Assembly: GCA_012031265.1 (NCBI GenBank)
Contig: JAAUTY010000002.1
Coordinates: 62,001 to 126,000, forward strand
DNA length: 64,000 nt
Direction: 5' to 3'
Source: Spirulinaceae cyanobacterium SM2_1_0
GTDB lineage: Bacteria; Cyanobacteriota; Cyanobacteriia; Cyanobacteriales; Spirulinaceae
The notes beneath the pieces are model-generated. The model was not told where the DNA came from. It saw nothing but the letters and a program-made list of their open reading frames with translations, and ran no database searches. Shown piece after piece: positions 19,493-30,417 of the stretch. Position 1 is the first letter of the stretch. Each line of letters begins with the position of its first letter. Position numbers and translations under genes: made by a program.

Positions 19493-21051
19493 GTGAAATT
19501 CCGCTGGCTGCTTCTCAGCACCCTCAGTTTTTTGCTGGTTGCGCTCCCCGCTCGCGCCGGCCGCTTGATTCACTGGCGCTTCGAGCCGCAACAGAATCGC
19601 CTCACCTTCACCACTGATGGCAATGTTCAGCCTCGTGCCGAACTGCTCAGCAATCCGTCCCGTCTGGTCATCGATCTGCCGGGAACTGTGCTCAATTACC
19701 CGACCGTAGAGCGGGCCGTGGGTGGAGCGATCGCCAGTATTCGCATCGGCCAATTCGACTCCCGCACCACCCGCATCGTCATTGAGCTGGTTCCTGGCTA
19801 CACCCTCGACCCCAGCCAAGTCAAATTCGAGGGTCTCGCTCCCACGGAATGGAGCGTCAATCTGCCTACTCCCCAACCACTGGCGGGCTATACCCCATCG
19901 ACGGCTACAGCCCCTGCCGTTGCGCCGCTTCCTCAGCGCCAGCCCCTTGGCAACGGGAACGAGTATTTCCAGGTGACAGCGACCGGCTTTTTCACCCGTT
20001 TCGGCGACGATCTCCCGCGCGACATCCAGGTGCGACAAGCCGGAGCCAATCAGCTGGAGGTTGATTTAGTCGGCGTCGCCTTGCCAGTTCAATTGGTAGA
20101 CCAGCGCCTACCGCTGAATCAGCATGGGGTTCAGAATGTGCGCTTCAGTGCTGTGGGAACTGGAACGAGTGCGATCGCCCGCCTGACGCTAGAAACCACG
20201 ACCGCCGCCTCAGACTGGCTAGCCACTCCCAGCGGCTTTGGGGTCACCCTCACCCCCCGCAACCCGCTGGCCGCCACACCGCCCTCATCCCTCCCGACGC
20301 CACCACCCATAACGCCGAATCCTCCTCCCGCGCGGTTCAGGCCCAAATCTCGGTTCCACCCCCGGCTCGCCCCGATTACATCAATGTGCCCCGCAGTTGG
20401 CAAACCCGTCAGCCCCTGACGCCCCCGGTTGCCTCACCGCCACCGCGCTTCTCAGCGCCGCCGCCGCCCAGTCTTAACCCCTACTCCTACTCCACCCGTC
20501 GCCCTCGCGATGGTCGCGCCTTGGTCGTCATTGATCCCGGGCATGGCGGCCGCGATCCCGGCGCGATTGGCATTGGCGGCTTGCGCGAGGTGGATGTGGT
20601 CTTGCCGATCTCGCTGGAAGTGGCGCGCATCCTTGAGCAGCAGGGTGTCAATGTCATGCTGACTCGCAACAGCGACTATTTCGTCACCCTCGCTGGTCGC
20701 ACCCAGATGGCGAACCAAGCGGGAGCCGACGCCTTTGTCAGCATCCATGCCAATGCCGTCGGCGGTCAGCGGGCCGAGGTCAATGGTGTTGAAACTTACT
20801 ACTACACCAGTGGCCGCCGCCTCGCCGACGTGATCCAGCGCAGTATCCTCCGCAGCGTGCCTTCAGGCAATCGCGGTGTGCGGCAGGCGCGTTTCTATGT
20901 GCTCCGCTACTCTGCGATGCCAGCGGTACTGGTTGAGGTTGGCTTTGTCACTGGCTACACCGATGCGCGCAATCTCAGCAATCCAGCCTACCGGAGTCAA
21001 ATGGCTCAGGCGATCGCCCGGGGCATTTTGGAATATATGCAAGGACGCTGA
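19493..21051 (+). pseudogene. amiC: AMIN-domain N-acetylmuramoyl-L-alanine amidase (AmiC-like), frameshifted in the linker
   Basis: The N-terminal frame (19493-20419) has a signal peptide (KFRWLLLSTLSFLLVALPARA) and two AMIN-like beta domains (LIHWRFEPQQNRLTFTTDG; FTRFGDDLPRDIQVRQAG). The second frame carries the Amidase_3 domain: VVIDPGHGGRDPGAIG (Zn His), LREVDVVLPI (Zn Glu), AFVSIHANAVGG (Zn His) and VLVEVGFVTG (catalytic Glu). The second frame opens upstream at least to 20281 (ALIPPDATTHNAESSSRAVQ), so one base seems lost between ~20240 and ~20340 in a C-rich, Pro-coding linker. It would cut cell-wall septal peptidoglycan in the periplasm. Confidence 0.85.
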
Positions 21052-23565: not shown

Positions 23566-24441
23566 CTAGGGGGAGTTGGGGGCGATCGCCCGCAGCTGAA
23601 TATCGGTTTCGATGTGCGATCGTACCGGCTCCCGGCTCTGGAGCGGGACGAAACCACCGGGCGTCGGCGCGGCGTAGCGCGGAATCGCACTCGCGGCGAG
23701 GGCGATGTGGCGATCACTCACCGCCAGCCCATGCGTGGGATCAAAACCACGCCAACCGCCGCCGGGGACGTAAACCTCTACCCAAGCGTGGAGGTCGCGG
23801 TTGTCTTGGTCAGGGTCTCCCTCCTGGTAGCCGCTGACAAAGCGAGTAGCGAGCCGGACACTGCGGCAGGCAGCCATGTAGAGCACGGCGAGGTCACGAC
23901 AAGAGCCTCGCTTTTCTCGCCAGGTCAGGTCAGGCGGCCAAGGCTCGCCGGTCTCACGGATGATTGATTGGCAATCTGTGTAGAGACGCTGATTGAGAGC
24001 GTTCAAAAAGGCACTGGTATTCCCGTCTGTCGCTTGGTAGAGACTCTGGGCGAGCTGGGTGGTGCTACCGTCGGTGGCTAGAGCAGGGACGGTCAGATAG
24101 GGCTGAAGCTGGCTTTGCAATTCGCTGGGATAGTCTGGTGGCAAATGCAAGCCCCAGGGGTCAAATTGATAGTTGAAGGGATTGGTGCAATGTGTCTCAA
24201 CCGTACTGTTAACTTGGATCTTCAGCCGTTCGGTCGGCTGCGCAAAGGTGAGTTGGGCGATCGCATTACCATCGAGATCTGTCAAATCAGCGACCTGCAA
24301 AGGCTCCGGGTCGAGCTGGAGCTGAAAGGCGCGCAGGGTTTGCTGACCGTCGGTGCGCGGTCGCAGGCGCAGAATCTGCGGTTTCAGTGTGACGGGCTGG
24401 CTGTAGTGGTAGGTGAGCGTATGCTGGATTTGAAAAAGCAC
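23566..24441 (-). CDS. Transglutaminase-like (DUF-type N-terminal + TGc core) protein
   Basis: A 291-residue protein starting MLFQIQHTLTYHYSQPVTLKPQILRLRPR, the N-terminal domain common to bacterial transglutaminase-like proteins. The catalytic triad of the core is visible: Cys in KRGSCRDLAVLYMAACRS (~185), His in NRDLHAWVEVYVPG (~225) and Asp in WRGFDPTHGL (~240). Members are thought to act as cysteine proteases or cross-linking enzymes; the substrate is unknown. It is the last gene of a three-gene minus-strand cluster with the Hsp70-like and coiled-coil proteins (75 bp gap). Confidence 0.9.
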   Translation of the reverse strand: MLFQIQHTLTYHYSQPVTLKPQILRLRPRTDGQQTLRAFQLQLDPEPLQVADLTDLDGNAIAQLTFAQPTERLKIQVNSTVETHCTNPFNYQFDPWGLHLPPDYPSELQSQLQPYLTVPALATDGSTTQLAQSLYQATDGNTSAFLNALNQRLYTDCQSIIRETGEPWPPDLTWREKRGSCRDLAVLYMAACRSVRLATRFVSGYQEGDPDQDNRDLHAWVEVYVPGGGWRGFDPTHGLAVSDRHIALAASAIPRYAAPTPGGFVPLQSREPVRSHIETDIQLRAIAPNSP

Positions 24442-24516
24442 AGTTAGAACCTAAAAATTCATCAATGAGCGTGGGGAAATTTTGGTGGGCGTGGTGACAG
24501 CATTGGACTGAGAAAT

Positions 24517-26262
24517 TCAAGGTTCGGGGTGGGCGATCGCCTGGAGATCCGCACTCAGTGGCTCGCCGAGACTCTGAGTCGCTCCCGTGAGCGCGAGCGC
24601 GAGAAATTGTTGCAGGCGGCGACTCTGTTGGTGGTTGGGATGGTAGCGCTGCTCGGCATCGAGTTGGCTGAGGGGGGCGGCGGCGATCGCCCGATATTCC
24701 AGACAACGGCGCGAGTCAGGCGTCAAGCGCGGTGTGGTCGCTGGGTCAGGCAAGAGGCCGGGCGGCAATGTGCCCGTGAGCAGAGCCGTGAGCCGCGTCT
24801 GGCAGGCACGGGTGTTGACGCCGCGTTGTTCGAGCTGCTGGGCAATGTCGGGCCAGGTTACCACGCTAGCATCGGTCAGCACTGTCAGCAGTTCCGCGAG
24901 CAGGAAGTAGTCGCTGTACTGATGCTGGCGACGGTCGAGGAGTTGGGGATGGGCTGGCAAGCGCGCCAAGCCCCGCGCCACCAAGCGACCAGGCTGGCTT
25001 TCGCTGGCGCGGACCAACGACGCCAGCGGAAATTTGCGTGCGAGCCAGGGTTGCAGCGCCGGCAGGAGGATGGGAGTAAGGCCGCCACTGAAAAGAATCT
25101 GGGTGATCGCGTCCGCCGCCAAGCCCTGTTGGCTGAGCAAGCGGTTCACCGCTTGGTTGACGGGCTGCACCAGCGGCTCAAAAATCGTGGTCGTCAGCGC
25201 GGTGCGACTGACAGACCAGGCTTGGGGGCCGAGGTGGGTCGCGAGTTCGGGCTGGCGTCGCAAGATCAGCGCCACACGCCAGGCGGTAGCGAGGAGCGAT
25301 CGCCCGGCCGGAAAAATTTGCAGGGCGGTAAAAGCTTCCTCGCGACGAGGGCTGTCGGGCTGCCCCGGCTGCGGCGGCTCGAAGGCGAGTTCTTGCAAAA
25401 AGCTCTGTTCGGGTTGCCATTGCGGATAGAGCAAATGGCTAAAAATGTCCAAGCTGAGGGCATTGCTGCCGTAGGCGAGGGATTCAGCGCTGACCGCCGT
25501 TTGCGACCAGTCGGCGGGCTGAGCGGGCAGGCGGGCGATCGCCAGTTCGGTGTGGCTGGTGCCGCTGTGGATAACGAGCGTCGAGCGATCGCCGCTGACC
25601 CAGCCCTGGTGCCAGCTTTCGAGCAGGGCGGCGGTGGCCTCGGCGAGAAAAAAGATTTGCGCAGGATGGGGCACTAAACCCGCGCCAAGAATAGCCTCGC
25701 GCACATTGAACTGGTAAGCATCACTCCAACCGGCTGGGCAACTGACGATCACCCCTTGCAGGTTGAGCAAAATCTCGCGCAGCGCCGCACCCGTCAAACC
25801 CTTAGCCCCCAGGGCATAGCGGTGCTTGCGACCCGCAGGAGTCAGCGTCGCCACCATCGCTTGTAGTGCCCGTTGCACCCAAAACAACGGCACGGGTTGC
25901 TCGCCATAGCCCAGCAGTTGCGGCTCCCACTGGCGGCGTTTGCGGCTGTAGAATGGTAGTGCCGTGTTCAGATAGGGTTTCATCCCGTCCAACCAGATGC
26001 CAGCGGTGTGACGGGCCAATTTGAGGGCGGGGGCACCCACCGCAAGACGACGAGCAGCAAGTGAACCCGTGCTCGTGTCGCAGCCAAAGTAGGCGATCGC
26101 AGGTAGGCGAGCAGTCGGCGGCTCAGCAGTTTTGCCCGTGCGAGCCGACCAATAGAGGGGATAGAGACGCCCGGAGTCAGTGGCGAGCAGCGTTGCGGCG
26201 ATCGCTGCCGTGCCAATGTCCAAACCCAGATACCAAGCCGTCGCTGGCATTTGCTTGTCCAT
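24517..26262 (-). CDS. Hsp70/actin-fold protein of unknown role
   Basis: About 581 residues. Phosphate-1 motif WYLGLDIGTAAIAATLL near the N-terminus, connect-1-like LAEATAALLESW near residue 230, phosphate-2 region LVIHSGTSHTELAIARL near 255 (the usual DxGGGT is altered), and an adenosine motif ILFSGGLTPILLPALQPWL near 425. It lacks the substrate-binding domain of DnaK and instead has ~130 extra C-terminal residues. It could be an ATP-switching chaperone or scaffold. It lies between an acidic coiled-coil gene and a transglutaminase gene. The start at 26262 is preferred over the in-frame GTG at 26283. Confidence 0.8.
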   Translation of the reverse strand: MDKQMPATAWYLGLDIGTAAIAATLLATDSGRLYPLYWSARTGKTAEPPTARLPAIAYFGCDTSTGSLAARRLAVGAPALKLARHTAGIWLDGMKPYLNTALPFYSRKRRQWEPQLLGYGEQPVPLFWVQRALQAMVATLTPAGRKHRYALGAKGLTGAALREILLNLQGVIVSCPAGWSDAYQFNVREAILGAGLVPHPAQIFFLAEATAALLESWHQGWVSGDRSTLVIHSGTSHTELAIARLPAQPADWSQTAVSAESLAYGSNALSLDIFSHLLYPQWQPEQSFLQELAFEPPQPGQPDSPRREEAFTALQIFPAGRSLLATAWRVALILRRQPELATHLGPQAWSVSRTALTTTIFEPLVQPVNQAVNRLLSQQGLAADAITQILFSGGLTPILLPALQPWLARKFPLASLVRASESQPGRLVARGLARLPAHPQLLDRRQHQYSDYFLLAELLTVLTDASVVTWPDIAQQLEQRGVNTRACQTRLTALLTGTLPPGLLPDPATTPRLTPDSRRCLEYRAIAAAPLSQLDAEQRYHPNHQQSRRLQQFLALALTGATQSLGEPLSADLQAIAHPEP

Positions 26263-26344
26263 AGATTCGTCCCAACTTACCACCGGACTGCCTTCAGAAT
26301 GATTTTGCCGACGGCATTCCGGCGCTCGCTGCTGCCGCTCACGG

Positions 26345-28660
26345 CTAGGAGGGTGCGGAGGTCGGCTCGGTGTCCGACCAGGGTTCAGCGGTCAGTTCCG
26401 CCATTGAGTGAATGACAGTGGCGTCCGCCAGTGCCGTGATATCACCATCGTCTTCGGGTGCCGCGATCTCAAAGTCTAGGGCCGCCGCGTCGCGGGTGCT
26501 TGCAGGGGCAGGTTTCGGGGCGGTTGCCGTTGGCTCCGCGAGCCTTGCCGGAACAGGGGTAATCGACAGCGGTGCCGGTTTGGCAATCGGGACAATTACA
26601 TCTTCGGGATTGTCCGCGAAAATGTCCACTTCGTTCACTGCTGCTGGCTCGCTTGCCAACTCCATGCCGATTTCGGGCGCATCCGCCCAGTCCAGCGGCT
26701 CCGCGGCGGCTGTAGCCTCTCCCCAGGGGGCCAGTTCTTGTTTGCCGATGGGTTCGCCAACCGCTGGCGGCTCCGGTTTGGGAGCTGTCAGATGCCAGCG
26801 ATCCATGACACTCGCATCCACTACTGGCGGGCTGTCCTCGGCCGTCTGCCAAATATCGTCCATCAGCGTTGGCTCCGGGTGCACAGGCGTCGGTGCCGGT
26901 TCAGTTGCCGCCGTTTGGGGGCTAGGCAGAGGGGCGAAGGGCGAGACATCAAGTTCGAGGCTCTCCTTGGGTGGGGCGGGCGATCGCCGGGTAGGGGGCG
27001 TTGTCGCGGATTCAATTGGAGCGGGGGACTCCGGCTCCGACCCGAAGCGCGCCAAATCCTCATCCAGTTGGCGGATTTGCTCGGCATCGAGCACGTCTTC
27101 CCACTCAGCGGCCAGCACCGAATCATTGGCCTCGGTCGCGAGCAAAATTTCATTGGCGGCGGCGAGGGCAACATCTTCCGTCACTGCTGCGACCTCATCA
27201 CCCCCCTCCTCAGCGGCGATCTCCGCTGCCACCTCCGCTTGCGCTTGGTAGACTTGCTCGAGCAATTCACTGAGCGAGGCGATGGTGTCTTTGACATCGC
27301 CAACGGTCGTGATCGCCGCCTCGAGCGTCTCGACTGGCTCAGCCGCAACCGATTCCACCGCCGTTTGGGGTCGATCGCCAAATAGCACCACTTCAAGGGG
27401 TTGCGCCGCTGGGCGGGGCATCTCCAGTGCACGCTCACTGGCAAGCGTCGCAGGATCGTGTTGGCTGTCAAACAGAGCATCTTCTAGTCGTACCGGCAGC
27501 GGGCTGTTGGCAGCGTCAGAATCTACCGCAGCGGGGGAAAGTGGCGGGGTCAGCACTAGGGGTTCAGGCTCGGGGTCGGGCTGCGCCTCAACTGGCAGGT
27601 CGGTGCTAAAGAGTTGCTCATCCCATTCGTCCCAAGTTTCACCACCAGCCGCATTCTCTAAGGGCGGCTCCGGGGCGAGGTCGAGCGCCAGGAGATCCGC
27701 TACGGCATCAACCTCGTCGCGCGTGATCGCCGCAACCGGTTCACCAGCCAGCTCAACCCCCGCAAAAGGGTACAAAAATGGTTCCTCGCCTGACTCGGCT
27801 GCTGGCCGCTCAGCACGTTCGGCAGGCGGTGCGTCGGCTGCTGGGGAGACTGGCTCCGGCAGCAGCGGTTCCAGTGAGCGCTGGGAGCGCTCGACTTGCA
27901 GGGGCATCGCTAGCGGCGGCGCATCTGGGGGAATGGACGCGGCACTGCGACCGACGTAGTAGCTCAGAATCGCTTCGCCCTGTTGACCGAGGGCGTGCAT
28001 CCGTTCCAGCGCTTGCGCTAGGGACTGCTGGTAGCTCTGCAAGTCCCCTTCGAGGCTACTAAAAACGCTGTGAAAGGTGCGATCCAGGCTGCCCACTAGC
28101 GCATCGGCCTGTTGTTCGAGGGCGCGGAGCTGTTCGAGGCGTTCGAGTTGTTGCAGAGGCGAGCCAATCGCGAGGGGAGCGTAGGGATCAGTTGGGCTGG
28201 CGAGGGCGTCTCGCTGCGTAGCGAGTATCTGCGCTTCAAATGCCTGTAATGCCTTGGCAATGTGCCGCCGCAAACTTTCGCTACAGCGGCCTAGCAGCAC
28301 TTGTAGGAAGTTGGACATCAATTGGGTTTGCTGGTTTTCGAGGCGCTGGACATCGCGTGTGATTGCCTGACGCTGTTGACGCAGGAGCTCGAGCTCCTGC
28401 TGCACCGGCTGCAACCAGTCGCTGCGTTGGCGATTGAGTTGAGCCATGACGGCTTGGGCGATCGCTGCTGCTGTCTCGCGCTCCACCGGTTGTAGGTCAG
28501 GTGGCTCTGCCGGAGTCACCTCCGCCTGCTGATTGCGGAGGCTGACTAGGGCGCTACGAGCTTGTTCGAGGGCGGCTTGCTGGTCGGCTGGGGCGGGGTC
28601 ATCCGCCGCCAAAACCCGATCAATGTCCGCAATCAGTGCTTGAATCTCCTGGAAAGTCAC
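26345..28660 (-). CDS. Large acidic coiled-coil protein, unknown function
   Basis: A 771-residue protein. Residues ~1-250 are helical and Gln/Leu-rich with heptad spacing (LQPVQQELELLRQQRQAITR, LQQLERLEQLRALEQQADAL), so a coiled coil is likely. Residues ~260-771 are Pro/Ala/Glu-rich and strongly acidic with no domain I recognise; they are probably disordered. No signal peptide or membrane helix. It is the first gene of the cluster with the Hsp70/actin-fold protein (82 bp gap) and the transglutaminase, and is divergent from the Crp-type gene. Confidence 0.72.
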   Translation of the reverse strand: MTFQEIQALIADIDRVLAADDPAPADQQAALEQARSALVSLRNQQAEVTPAEPPDLQPVERETAAAIAQAVMAQLNRQRSDWLQPVQQELELLRQQRQAITRDVQRLENQQTQLMSNFLQVLLGRCSESLRRHIAKALQAFEAQILATQRDALASPTDPYAPLAIGSPLQQLERLEQLRALEQQADALVGSLDRTFHSVFSSLEGDLQSYQQSLAQALERMHALGQQGEAILSYYVGRSAASIPPDAPPLAMPLQVERSQRSLEPLLPEPVSPAADAPPAERAERPAAESGEEPFLYPFAGVELAGEPVAAITRDEVDAVADLLALDLAPEPPLENAAGGETWDEWDEQLFSTDLPVEAQPDPEPEPLVLTPPLSPAAVDSDAANSPLPVRLEDALFDSQHDPATLASERALEMPRPAAQPLEVVLFGDRPQTAVESVAAEPVETLEAAITTVGDVKDTIASLSELLEQVYQAQAEVAAEIAAEEGGDEVAAVTEDVALAAANEILLATEANDSVLAAEWEDVLDAEQIRQLDEDLARFGSEPESPAPIESATTPPTRRSPAPPKESLELDVSPFAPLPSPQTAATEPAPTPVHPEPTLMDDIWQTAEDSPPVVDASVMDRWHLTAPKPEPPAVGEPIGKQELAPWGEATAAAEPLDWADAPEIGMELASEPAAVNEVDIFADNPEDVIVPIAKPAPLSITPVPARLAEPTATAPKPAPASTRDAAALDFEIAAPEDDGDITALADATVIHSMAELTAEPWSDTEPTSAPS

Positions 28661-28980
28661 AGCGGTAGAACCTTACTGATATATCTCGCGCGCCCGACTG
28701 CCGCCCCTTGCTGAGTTTACGGACAGTCCCTAATCATCATGCTACCGCCTCACTTGGCGATCGCACGTACAGGCCTCAGACCCCGGATCACCGGACTGAT
28801 ACCCCGAAATCGATCGTCGGTTTGCGAATCGATACGACTTGCCACCGCGACCGGTAGTATCCTATCAGTTAGGAGTAGGAGAGTCAGCCTGTGCTTTGCA
28901 ACCACAGGCTGGGTGATCGCAGAATACTGGCTGCGGTTCGCGCTTTTCTGCATCCCCGCCCGGTTCATATGTGATCTCCG
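28661..28980. other. 320-bp divergent promoter region between the coiled-coil gene and the Crp-type gene
   Basis: No gene is supported. The region separates oppositely directed genes, so it should hold both promoters, and possibly sites for the Crp-type protein itself. I see no clear TGTGA-N6-TCACA site. Confidence 0.4.
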
Positions 28981-29682
28981 ATGGAAGACCGTCCCAATGT
29001 TCGCGATCCCGATGTCCAAAAGTTAGTCGATACGGCTCCCTTCTTCGTCGGGCTGCCGGAAGAGGCAATCGGCTCCGCTACCTGTCACGCCGTGACGCGC
29101 ACACACCCGTCGAACCAGGTCATCCTCTTGGAAAACGACTGGGGTGGCTCTGTCTACTTCATCCTGGACGGTTGGGTGAAGATTCGCACCTACAACCTGG
29201 ACGGCAAGGAAGTGACGCTGAATATCATCGGCAAGGGCGAGGTCTTTGGCGAAATGGCGGCTCTGGACGAGGTGCCACGCTCCACCGACGTGATTACCCT
29301 GACGCCGACGAAAATCAGTAGCCTGCCCTCACAAGATTTTGTCGATCTGATTCGCAACGAGGCGCTGGCGGGTGTGCGCTTGGCGCAACTGATGGCGACC
29401 CGCTTGCGTCAGGTGAACCGCCGCCTCCGCCTGCGGGAGGCCGATAGTGTTTCGCGCGTCGCCGACACCATCTTGTTTCTCGCCGAGGGTCAGGGCAAAA
29501 CCAGCGACCAGGGCACAGAAATTCCCAACCTGCCGCATCGCGAGTTGAGTAGCCTCAGTGGCTTGGCACGCGAGACCGTGACGCGGGTGCTGACCAAGCT
29601 GGAGAAAAAAGGCTTAATCGCGCGCGACCAGGATGTGCTACGGATTCCGGACATGCAAGCGCTTGAGCGCGCCATTACTTAA
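28981..29682 (+). CDS. Crp/Fnr-family transcriptional regulator
   Basis: A 233-residue protein. The cyclic-nucleotide-binding fold spans ~20-140. FGEMAALDEVPRSTDVI carries the Glu and Arg-Ser that contact cAMP in CRP, so cAMP binding is plausible. No Fe-S cysteines of the FNR type are present. The helix-turn-helix is near residues 180-220 (LPHRELSSLSGLARETVTRVLTKLEKKGLI). It might be the cAMP receptor of this organism (SyCRP1-like), which is inference. A DUF2232 gene starts 3 bp after its stop, so the two are co-transcribed. An adenylate cyclase lies at 35435-36940. Confidence 0.88.
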   Translation: MEDRPNVRDPDVQKLVDTAPFFVGLPEEAIGSATCHAVTRTHPSNQVILLENDWGGSVYFILDGWVKIRTYNLDGKEVTLNIIGKGEVFGEMAALDEVPRSTDVITLTPTKISSLPSQDFVDLIRNEALAGVRLAQLMATRLRQVNRRLRLREADSVSRVADTILFLAEGQGKTSDQGTEIPNLPHRELSSLSGLARETVTRVLTKLEKKGLIARDQDVLRIPDMQALERAIT

Positions 29683-29685
29683 ACG

Positions 29686-30417
29686 ATGCAGAGCGAGACC
29701 GGCGATCGCGAGGTCAACTGGGTTGATGCGGATGACGATTCGAGCGTGGAGGTGTCGGGCGATCGCCTGCTCCCACCTACGGAACCGGAGCCAGTGGCGA
29801 CCAGCACCTTGGTCGTCGTGGAAACAGCCTTTTTGGCCAGTGCCGCCAGCTTGATCTGGTTGATCAACTACTACTTTCCCCTGGGTCCGATCCTGCGCCT
29901 GCTCTTCCCGATCCCCATTGCCCTCATCTACCTGCGACGCGGTCAGCGGGCAGCTTGGATGGGCGCGCTGGTTTCGGGTCTGTTGCTCTCGGTGCTGATG
30001 GGGCCGACGCGCAGCATTCAGTACGTGATTCCCTTCGGCTTACTCGGCGTGCAGTTGGGCGCGATCTGGCGGCGGCGTGGTAGTTGGTACTTTGCGATCG
30101 CCACCGGGATGCTACTCGGTACCTTTGGTGTCTTTTTTCGCCTTTGGCTGGCATCGATCGTGATCGGCGAGAATGTCTGGATCTATGCGATTAACCAAAT
30201 GACCGTCTGGATCGACTGGGCATTTATCCAACTAGGCATCCTCAGCCAACCCGGCCCGGTATTGATTCAGAGCCTCGTGCTGTGTATCGTCCTGCTCAAC
30301 AATCTGCTCTATATGTTCGCGGTGCATTTGGTCGCTCTACTCATCTTCGACCGCCTCGGCAACCCGATCACGCGCCCACCGCATTGGGTACAGGTTCTGT
30401 TCGAGTACGACTACTAA
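29686..30417 (+). CDS. DUF2232 membrane protein
   Basis: A 243-residue protein with a ~45-residue acidic cytoplasmic N-terminus and about six or seven membrane segments (VVVETAFLASAASLIWLINYYF, RLLFPIPIALIYLRRGQRAAW, LLLSVLMGPTRSIQYVIPFGLLG). It matches DUF2232 (YybS-like) proteins, which resemble S-components of uptake systems but have no proven function. Translation is probably coupled to the Crp-type gene upstream (3-bp gap). Confidence 0.85.
   Translation: MQSETGDREVNWVDADDDSSVEVSGDRLLPPTEPEPVATSTLVVVETAFLASAASLIWLINYYFPLGPILRLLFPIPIALIYLRRGQRAAWMGALVSGLLLSVLMGPTRSIQYVIPFGLLGVQLGAIWRRRGSWYFAIATGMLLGTFGVFFRLWLASIVIGENVWIYAINQMTVWIDWAFIQLGILSQPGPVLIQSLVLCIVLLNNLLYMFAVHLVALLIFDRLGNPITRPPHWVQVLFEYDY

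Follow-up and report, generated by a model that had tools for sequence, protein, structure and literature searches.

A conserved cyanobacterial pair of an acidic helical protein and an Hsp70-like protein, with a probable slippage run at their junction in relatives

Gene organization at the locus

We analyzed a 64,000-nucleotide (nt) segment (positions 62001-126000 of a contig; hereafter the window) from the 5.03-Mb genome of Spirulinaceae cyanobacterium SM2_1_0, with emphasis on two adjacent genes, here called CC and HSP, which encode an acidic protein with a helical N-terminal domain and a protein resembling the Hsp70 nucleotide-binding domain. The two proved to be a conserved unit, and the most interesting feature of that unit sits in relatives, outside the window, where one gene probably gives two proteins through a conserved run of ten adenines (A10) at the CC/HSP junction. 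As this slippery junction is absent from the window, it is invisible to a reader of the window alone.

CC, HSP and a transglutaminase gene lie head to tail in the window, all on the minus strand according to its list of open reading frames (ORFs), just as a first-pass annotation of the same DNA had described them. The gaps of 75–82 base pairs (bp) given there hold in part, as HSP and the transglutaminase gene are separated by 75 bp, whereas CC and HSP are separated by 61 bp if HSP begins at its GTG and by 82 bp only if it begins at the ATG at 26262. Counted from the CC stop, the start options for HSP are GTG at +61, ATG at +82 and ATG at +94. The transglutaminase has a clear Pfam match (Bact_transglu_N plus Transglut_core), CC and HSP match no Pfam or NCBIfam family above cut-off, and searches with the CC family returned only scattered weak matches, all under the cut-offs. 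The genes are as follows (aa, amino acids):

26345..28660, minus strand: CC protein, GTG start, 771 aa (ORF; N-terminal helical domain plus acidic, probably disordered tail)
26284..26344, minus strand: CC/HSP junction, 61 bp, with the two genes in different frames (ORF positions)
24517..26283, minus strand: HSP protein, 588 aa from the GTG at 26283, alternative ATG at 26262 (ORF, structure model, family alignment A1)
23566..24441, minus strand: transglutaminase, 291 aa (ORF; Pfam)

Linkage and repeated fusion

CC and HSP are a conserved unit. Among 77 HSP loci, the window included, CC was found just upstream of HSP (same strand, no more than two ORFs away) in 36 and as the N-terminal part of a fusion with it in 32, giving 68 loci in all, and the nine loci with no visible CC include two (L050, L063) at contig ends. 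The linkage across genomes that had been suggested as a check of the cluster is therefore present for this pair and lacking for the transglutaminase, for which searches of the flanks read at the other 76 loci (by blastp, and by tblastn at 36 of them) returned no homolog. It follows that the transglutaminase, which stands beside the pair in only one of the 77 loci, the window itself, is not part of the CC-HSP unit, and its suggested role as a modifying member of the cluster is not sustained.

In a quickly built maximum-likelihood tree of 69 HSP domains (eight partial HSP rows were omitted), 63 of which were labeled fused or split, parsimony requires at least 11 changes between the two states, six of them forced by branches with support of at least 95, compared to 21.1 changes for shuffled labels. 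This repeated interchange of fused and split forms is, at the level of sequence comparison, strong evidence that CC and HSP act together. Along with the linkage or fusion at 68 of the 77 loci, it lends support to one of the two arrangements proposed in the first-pass annotation, an ATP-switched scaffold with a partner.

A run of adenines at the junction in relatives

We searched the coding strand of a first set of 63 junctions for runs of nine or more adenines (A9+) within 400 nt upstream of the HSP domain. Such runs were present in 27 of the 63 loci, compared to 0.2 expected from the background of six A9+ runs in 744 neighboring ORFs (737 kb), and 27 of the 28 A9+ runs anywhere in CC plus linker fall in those 400 nt. 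A wider set began with 137 loci, five of which had a partial HSP (L075, L108–L111) and gave no row; removal from the remaining 132 of seven loci without CC, two with N's in CC (L134, L136) and three degenerate ones (L105–L107) left 120. An A9–A11 run occurs at the junction in 68 of these 120 loci and is exactly A10 in 54 of the 68. As the 60 added junctions are non-random and many of them (20) came from genus g10, 68/120 is not an unbiased frequency; without that genus the count is 45 of 97. The run was found in seven families of the window's order (f2, f5, f6, f12, f21, f32 and f33), in five families outside it (f34, f35, f36, f38 and f45) and in one unplaced metagenome-assembled genome (MAG; L040), and the 68 run loci hold 56 distinct junction strings. 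On the tree, presence of the run changes at least 11 times among the 63 loci, and its frame at least six times among the 27 run loci.

The run is in frame, in fused genes, in 38 of the 68 loci and out of frame, in split genes, in 30. Altogether 32 split loci have a run; in 30 of them CC is open into the run and HSP is open from it, so that a slip would join them, and the remaining two (L134, L136) are the loci dropped for N's in CC. HSP is a single uninterrupted frame in all 68 run loci. Upstream of its first beta strand, the 30 out-of-frame loci have an ATG in nine cases, a GTG or TTG in nine and none of these codons in 12, and the ATG frequency of 9/30 compares with 25/29 in run-free split loci (Fisher p 1.6e-5). 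Stops follow the run within 12 codons in both non-HSP frames in 52 of the 68 loci, compared to 15.3 expected (maximum 25 in 2000 resamplings), at similar distances in fused (medians 2 and 7 codons) and split (1 and 6 codons) genes.

These features bear on several explanations of the run. One is that CC and HSP are conserved neighbors only, the fusions reflecting gene-fusion drift and the run a lysine tract without recoding, with HSP made from its own start or by coupling. In keeping with this, AAA accounts for 73% of the Lys codons in the neighboring ORFs, 23 of the 61 fused loci have no A9+ run, and the window's own family does without one (see below). However, the excess of runs (27/63 versus 0.2) and of immediate stops (52/68 versus 15.3), the occurrence of the run in all three relative frames and the intact HSP frame of the 12 loci without a usual start codon argue against mere adjacency, which we consider improbable. 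Far less probable still is that homopolymer errors of sequencing or assembly produced the split forms. Homopolymer indels are a known error class, and L134 and L136 do carry N's in CC, but such errors cannot create a conserved run, and the out-of-frame runs occur in single-contig genomes (L074, L099, L104, L138) and repeat across species of one genus.

A further explanation is a contingency (phase-variation) locus, in which replication slippage would alter the length of the run and toggle the fused product between cells. Long A-runs are likely hypermutable according to the available text of PMC1088944; apart from flanking substitutions, the run of L073 (split) is A11 and that of its sibling L082 (fused) is A10, a difference of one A; and the in-frame and both out-of-frame states have been found. 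Conversely, run length is sharply A10 rather than spread over A9–A11, the frame in genus g10 is mostly set by the flanks while A10 is kept (GT-A10-CC or GC-A10-CC in split genes versus GTC-A10-CC in fused ones), and the stops in both other frames follow the run in fused genes too. Phase variation is less likely because run length is mostly fixed at ten, and we think it a poor explanation of the run.

The main rival is -1 ribosomal frameshifting on the A-run (A AAA AAA/G), by which a second product would be made as in Escherichia coli dnaX. A-runs contain slippery heptamers, and at 26 of the 30 out-of-frame loci CC and HSP would be joined by a -1 shift (or by one extra A). On the other hand, the other four need the opposite direction, A10 is kept although a heptamer suffices for ribosomal frameshifting, a Shine–Dalgarno (SD)-like stimulator site is found in only five of the 68 run loci, and no downstream fold was seen in them (mean z about 0). 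Ribosomal frameshifting is thus unlikely in our view, though less so than the other alternatives. The combination of a near-constant run length, a wandering frame, immediate stops and no stimulator fits transcriptional slippage of the Thermus dnaX type, and judged from these sequence features the junction run is probably a site of programmed slippage by RNA polymerase.

The two-gene form in the family of the window

In the window's own family, CC is visible at 12 loci, counting the window, and at every one of them the two genes are split; each of these loci offers an in-frame start codon and lacks a run on which slippage could occur. The window pair has no slippery run, its longest coding-strand A-run being four. 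The window pair thus represents, as two genes, a system found elsewhere as a single gene, for which we propose two products, and since the genes are separate in the window, HSP must meet CC in trans there.

Domains of the HSP protein

The Hsp70 resemblance of HSP is too weak for Pfam, as HSP scores 9.9 bits against PF00012, under the gathering score of 20.6, and none of the 31 members of alignment A1 matches PF00012 at E 0.01. Nonetheless, the resemblance appears real in its AlphaFold structure model, which was built from a 4-sequence input and is of middling quality (predicted template modeling score, pTM, 0.58; mean predicted local distance difference test score, pLDDT, 65). Residues 8-440 match Hsp70 nucleotide-binding domains, with a best Foldseek E of 2.6e-13 and a VIA-align Z of 18.6 (root-mean-square deviation, rmsd, 3.8 over 335 aligned residues), a result that upholds the Hsp70/actin-fold assignment of the first reading for the Hsp70 nucleotide-binding fold. 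When the HSP profile was searched against PDB sequences, DnaK and MreB matched weakly (best E 0.0028), and HHalign of HSP with the DnaK of the same genome gave a probability of 59 and E 9.1e-05. Three elements were located in the window:

26209..26229, minus strand: phosphate-1 motif LGLDIGT (D8-equivalent is D in 63/69 family rows)
25543..25578, minus strand: altered phosphate-2 loop, HSGTSHTE (corresponds to DLGGGTFD of the same genome's DnaK)
24520..24942, minus strand: HSP C-terminal domain, residues 441-581 (motifs QYSDYFLL, RGxNxRxC and LPxGLxP in A1)

The alteration of phosphate-2, already recognized in the window, extends across the family: in the sequence alignment the first D is kept in only 6 of 69 rows and is N in 33, and the last D is replaced by E in 56, a departure from the Hsp70 signature DxGGGTxD. 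Other positions are mostly kept in the same alignment, including that of K70 (53/69), that of E171 (E or D in 56/69) and the first glycine of the adenosine motif (67/69). From the fold matches and the altered phosphate-2 signature it follows that HSP is Hsp70-like by fold and not an Hsp70 chaperone by signature.

Very likely HSP also lacks a substrate-binding domain and has a conserved domain of ~140 residues in its place, in agreement with the earlier description of that domain as missing. Residues 441-581, which contain 12 of the 17 invariant columns of A1, are mostly helical when folded alone (model pTM 0.61), and no Hsp70 substrate-binding domain is among the structural matches shown for this middling model (Foldseek best E 1.7, VIA best Z 6.3). 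The altered catalytic loop and the very likely absence of a substrate-binding domain weaken the other arrangement put forward for the pair, that of client and chaperone. At best, the modeled C-terminal domain is winged-helix-like; a DNA-binding winged helix had only weak matches (Z 6.3 at most) and is not claimed.

Domains of the CC protein

The first reading of CC as an N-terminal coiled coil with an acidic disordered tail is borne out for the acidic composition, whereas the coiled coil is only probable. CC hydrophobic periodicity near 3.5 is modest, reaching p < 0.05 in two of seven stretches tested (residues 60-130, p 0.016; 160-235, p 0.012; compare 60-160, p 0.108), and the N-terminal domain is a probable coiled-coil oligomerization domain by sequence. 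The 522-residue tail (residues 250-771) contains 107 D+E, 22 K+R and 72 P, with an isoelectric point (pI) of ~4 and a net charge of -0.16 per residue, and the linker of most fused relatives is of the same acidic kind, with L060 as an exception.

Short motifs recur in the tails, of which 64 were compared with shuffled tails; a spurious match (L099_11) and tails shorter than 100 residues had been excluded, and the patterns were composed once the tails had been inspected. In addition to those located in the window (below), ASPxENLL occurs in 30 of the 64 tails (shuffled mean 0.1) and [ADE][SDEN]LF in 47 (shuffled mean 12.4). These motifs look like docking sites.

27914..28654, minus strand: conserved CC N-terminal domain, residues 3-249 (whole-domain profile match; alignment A2, 26 sequences)
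26348..27913, minus strand: acidic proline-rich tail, residues 250-771, probably disordered (composition)
27752..27772, minus strand: recurring tail motif YPFAGVE (pattern YPFAGxE; 15/64 tails, 14 split and 1 fused; shuffled mean 0.0, maximum 1)
27260..27286, minus strand: recurring tail motif TIASLSELL, LTELL-type (15/64, 7 split and 8 fused; shuffled mean 0.1, maximum 2)
27044..27070, minus strand: recurring tail motif QLDEDLARF (13/64, 11 split and 2 fused; shuffled mean 1.0, maximum 4)

Electrostatic docking of a basic HSP on the acidic tail was considered and rejected, since the HSP domain of the window has a pI of 9.3 but the family median is pI 5.5 with a net charge of -12 (69 loci).

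Distribution and genomic context

HSP was found in 36 of 59 closely related genomes (own genome included). A sample of 386 genomes from across the phylum had it in 89 (E 1e-10), and in the window's order 243 of 388 genomes had it (E 1e-30). HetR (PF03574, E 0.001), one of ten genes proposed for filament formation in the available text of PMC2821919, was found in 236 of the same 388 genomes. Both occur together in 209 genomes, HetR alone in 27, HSP alone in 34 and neither in 118, and 25 of the 34 HSP-only genomes belong to family f8. The CC-HSP system tracks lineages that bear HetR and are presumably filamentous, an association that phylogeny confounds.

Several loci have unusual pairs. The five f8 loci read (L105–L109) are short or partial and lack parts of the HSP profile, including the C-terminal end, and most of the linker, as if the pair were eroding in that family. 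Two loci of family f36 (L110, L111) have a CC of ~1740-1754 aa and an HSP of ~450 aa in which the middle part of the profile is missing; with DUF2232 and CobT-like genes next on the same strand, this is a rearranged, reduced form of the pair. L060 and L064 are fused, with a partial N-terminal domain and a linker of 237 non-acidic (L060) or 151 acidic residues (L064), and their genomes have no HetR match.

A divergent Crp-type gene lies upstream of the pair in 50 of 68 loci with enough flank, and a DUF2232 gene is near it in 50 of 77. The other recurrent neighbors, which we take from their sequences to be CobT-like, sugar transferase and PgsA-like genes, were found near the pair in 39/77 loci (CobT-like) and co-directionally downstream of it in 24/72 (sugar transferase) and 20/72 (PgsA-like). 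An operon with the last two, both absent in the window, was not taken as part of the system. The window has the following divergent neighbors:

28981-29682, plus strand: Crp-type regulator (Pfam)
29686-30417, plus strand: DUF2232 membrane protein (Pfam)

By analogy with SyCRP1, which the available text of PMC2633013 ties to pilus biogenesis and motility in Synechocystis, the Crp neighbor is a hint, no more, of motility or surface functions. Control of the pair by CRP was not adopted as a candidate, as TGTGA-N6-TCACA was not clearly enriched between the pair and the Crp-type gene (mean best mismatches 2.70 versus 2.83 shuffled, n=50), and the search with this pattern revealed no conserved CRP site. 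By eye, a palindrome, AGCCTGTG-N9-CACAGGCT, was seen at 28886-28910 between the pair and the Crp-type gene, ~70 bases before the Crp start. Elsewhere in the window, an AMIN-domain ORF (19493-20419, plus strand) and an Amidase_3 ORF (20386-21051, plus strand) overlap by 34 bases in different frames. AMIN and Amidase_3 domains usually occur in one amidase, and the overlap may be a frameshift or an assembly error.

Discussion

Taken jointly, our analyses favor, with fair but far from complete assurance, a reading in which CC and HSP are parts of one machine and slippage on the A-run gives a short CC and a long CC-HSP in relatives. CC would oligomerize via its N-terminal helical domain and hold out a long tail, acidic and disordered, that bears short docking motifs, and HSP would work on the CC scaffold as a slow switch or clamp under nucleotide control and not as a general chaperone. 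In many relatives the two are fused into one polypeptide or joined at an A9-A11 run on which RNA polymerase (less likely the ribosome) would slip, yielding a short CC and a long CC-HSP from one gene in a set ratio; in the window's family, where the run is absent, CC and HSP are two genes, each with its own start. The family, its linkage and fusions, the fold, the altered motif, the A-run with the stops beside it and the missing usual start codons at some loci are observed, and slippage, the two products, their assembly, nucleotide binding and the cellular role as a nucleotide-switched scaffold are inferred.

A number of observations weigh against this reading. The lack of an SD-like stimulator or downstream fold counts against a ribosomal shift of the dnaX type without proving polymerase slippage. 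An A9+ run is missing in 29 of 59 split loci as well as in the 23 fused ones (three of which have A8), and its absence in the window and at so many loci means that not every locus needs one gene to give two products. HSP in the 30 out-of-frame loci could start at ATG (9), GTG/TTG (9) or a rarer codon (12), and the run loci are related, so that the counts are not independent. Finally, the HSP structure model is of middling quality, and HSP, with changes at several catalytic positions, may be unable to bind nucleotide.

To a broader proposal we give an even chance: that most HetR-bearing cyanobacteria of the order own an undescribed machine, encoded by a gene with a fixed A10, which produces the acidic scaffold both on its own and with a degenerate Hsp70-like switch at its end. 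The ratio of the two products would be set by slippage of RNA polymerase and not by two promoters. Lineages would repeatedly have made either a permanent fusion or, as in the window, two genes, in effect natural experiments on the origin and resolution of recoded genes, and the machine may serve a property of filaments such as septal, polar or motility organization.

If the reading is true, it represents a deeply conserved programmed slippage in a chromosomal bacterial gene, the A-runs being spread over 12 genome families (five beyond the window's order) and an unplaced MAG. Close relatives would show the gene in frame, out of frame, permanently fused and separated, which would make the origin and resolution of recoding directly testable, and filamentous cyanobacteria would gain a new candidate scaffold based on an Hsp70-type fold. 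Such a system would also be easily missed, as a single base would determine whether gene callers see one gene, two genes or a broken gene.

Comparison with known systems

Judged by titles and the starts of abstracts, no description of the CC/HSP pair or its slippage was recognized in open-licence PubMed Central. CC is like the cyanobacterial coiled-coil-rich proteins of PMC7002697 (nine candidates of ~280 to 650 aa in its available text) in being a helical scaffold protein of the same phylum. Those proteins differ in that no Hsp70 part is named for them, 'chaperone' and 'DnaK' being unmatched in the available text.

HSP shares with Hsp70/DnaK the nucleotide-binding fold (8-440), the phosphate-1 motif and mostly the K70- and E171-like positions, and differs in its changed phosphate-2 loop, its very likely lack of a substrate-binding domain, its distinct conserved C-terminal domain and its N-terminal scaffold in cis or trans. 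The DnaK chaperone system that, in the available portion of PMC9239167, links type IV pili and polysaccharide secretion likewise involves an Hsp70-type protein of motile cyanobacteria. The HSP family, in contrast, is far from DnaK. The DnaK of that system is reportedly canonical and has its usual partners.

The closest likeness is to dnaX of Thermus thermophilus (A9; tau and gamma), in which, as here, the gene contains an A-run, its template can encode the long product, the other frames meet stops shortly after the run, and short and long products, proposed in our case, share a common N-terminus (available text of PMC1088944 and PMC5009743). In Thermus, slippage adds bases to mRNAs, and the short product results from stops close by in the two non-zero frames (PMC5009743). 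The differences are that the CC-HSP proteins are unrelated to DnaX, that the run here is mostly A10 and its slippage deduced from sequence, and that the template is out of frame in 30 of our loci, where slippage would make the long product. As set out in the accessible part of PMC1088944, coding regions avoid A/T runs from a certain length upward, which is nine in a large share of genomes; a run length conserved among homologs indicates purposeful slippage; and insertion sequence (IS) elements in Nostoc PCC 7120 contain stretches of 8-10 A. The genome survey described there retained only genes where slippage makes a longer product, and for this reason in-frame A10 genes of the CC-HSP kind would have been passed over.

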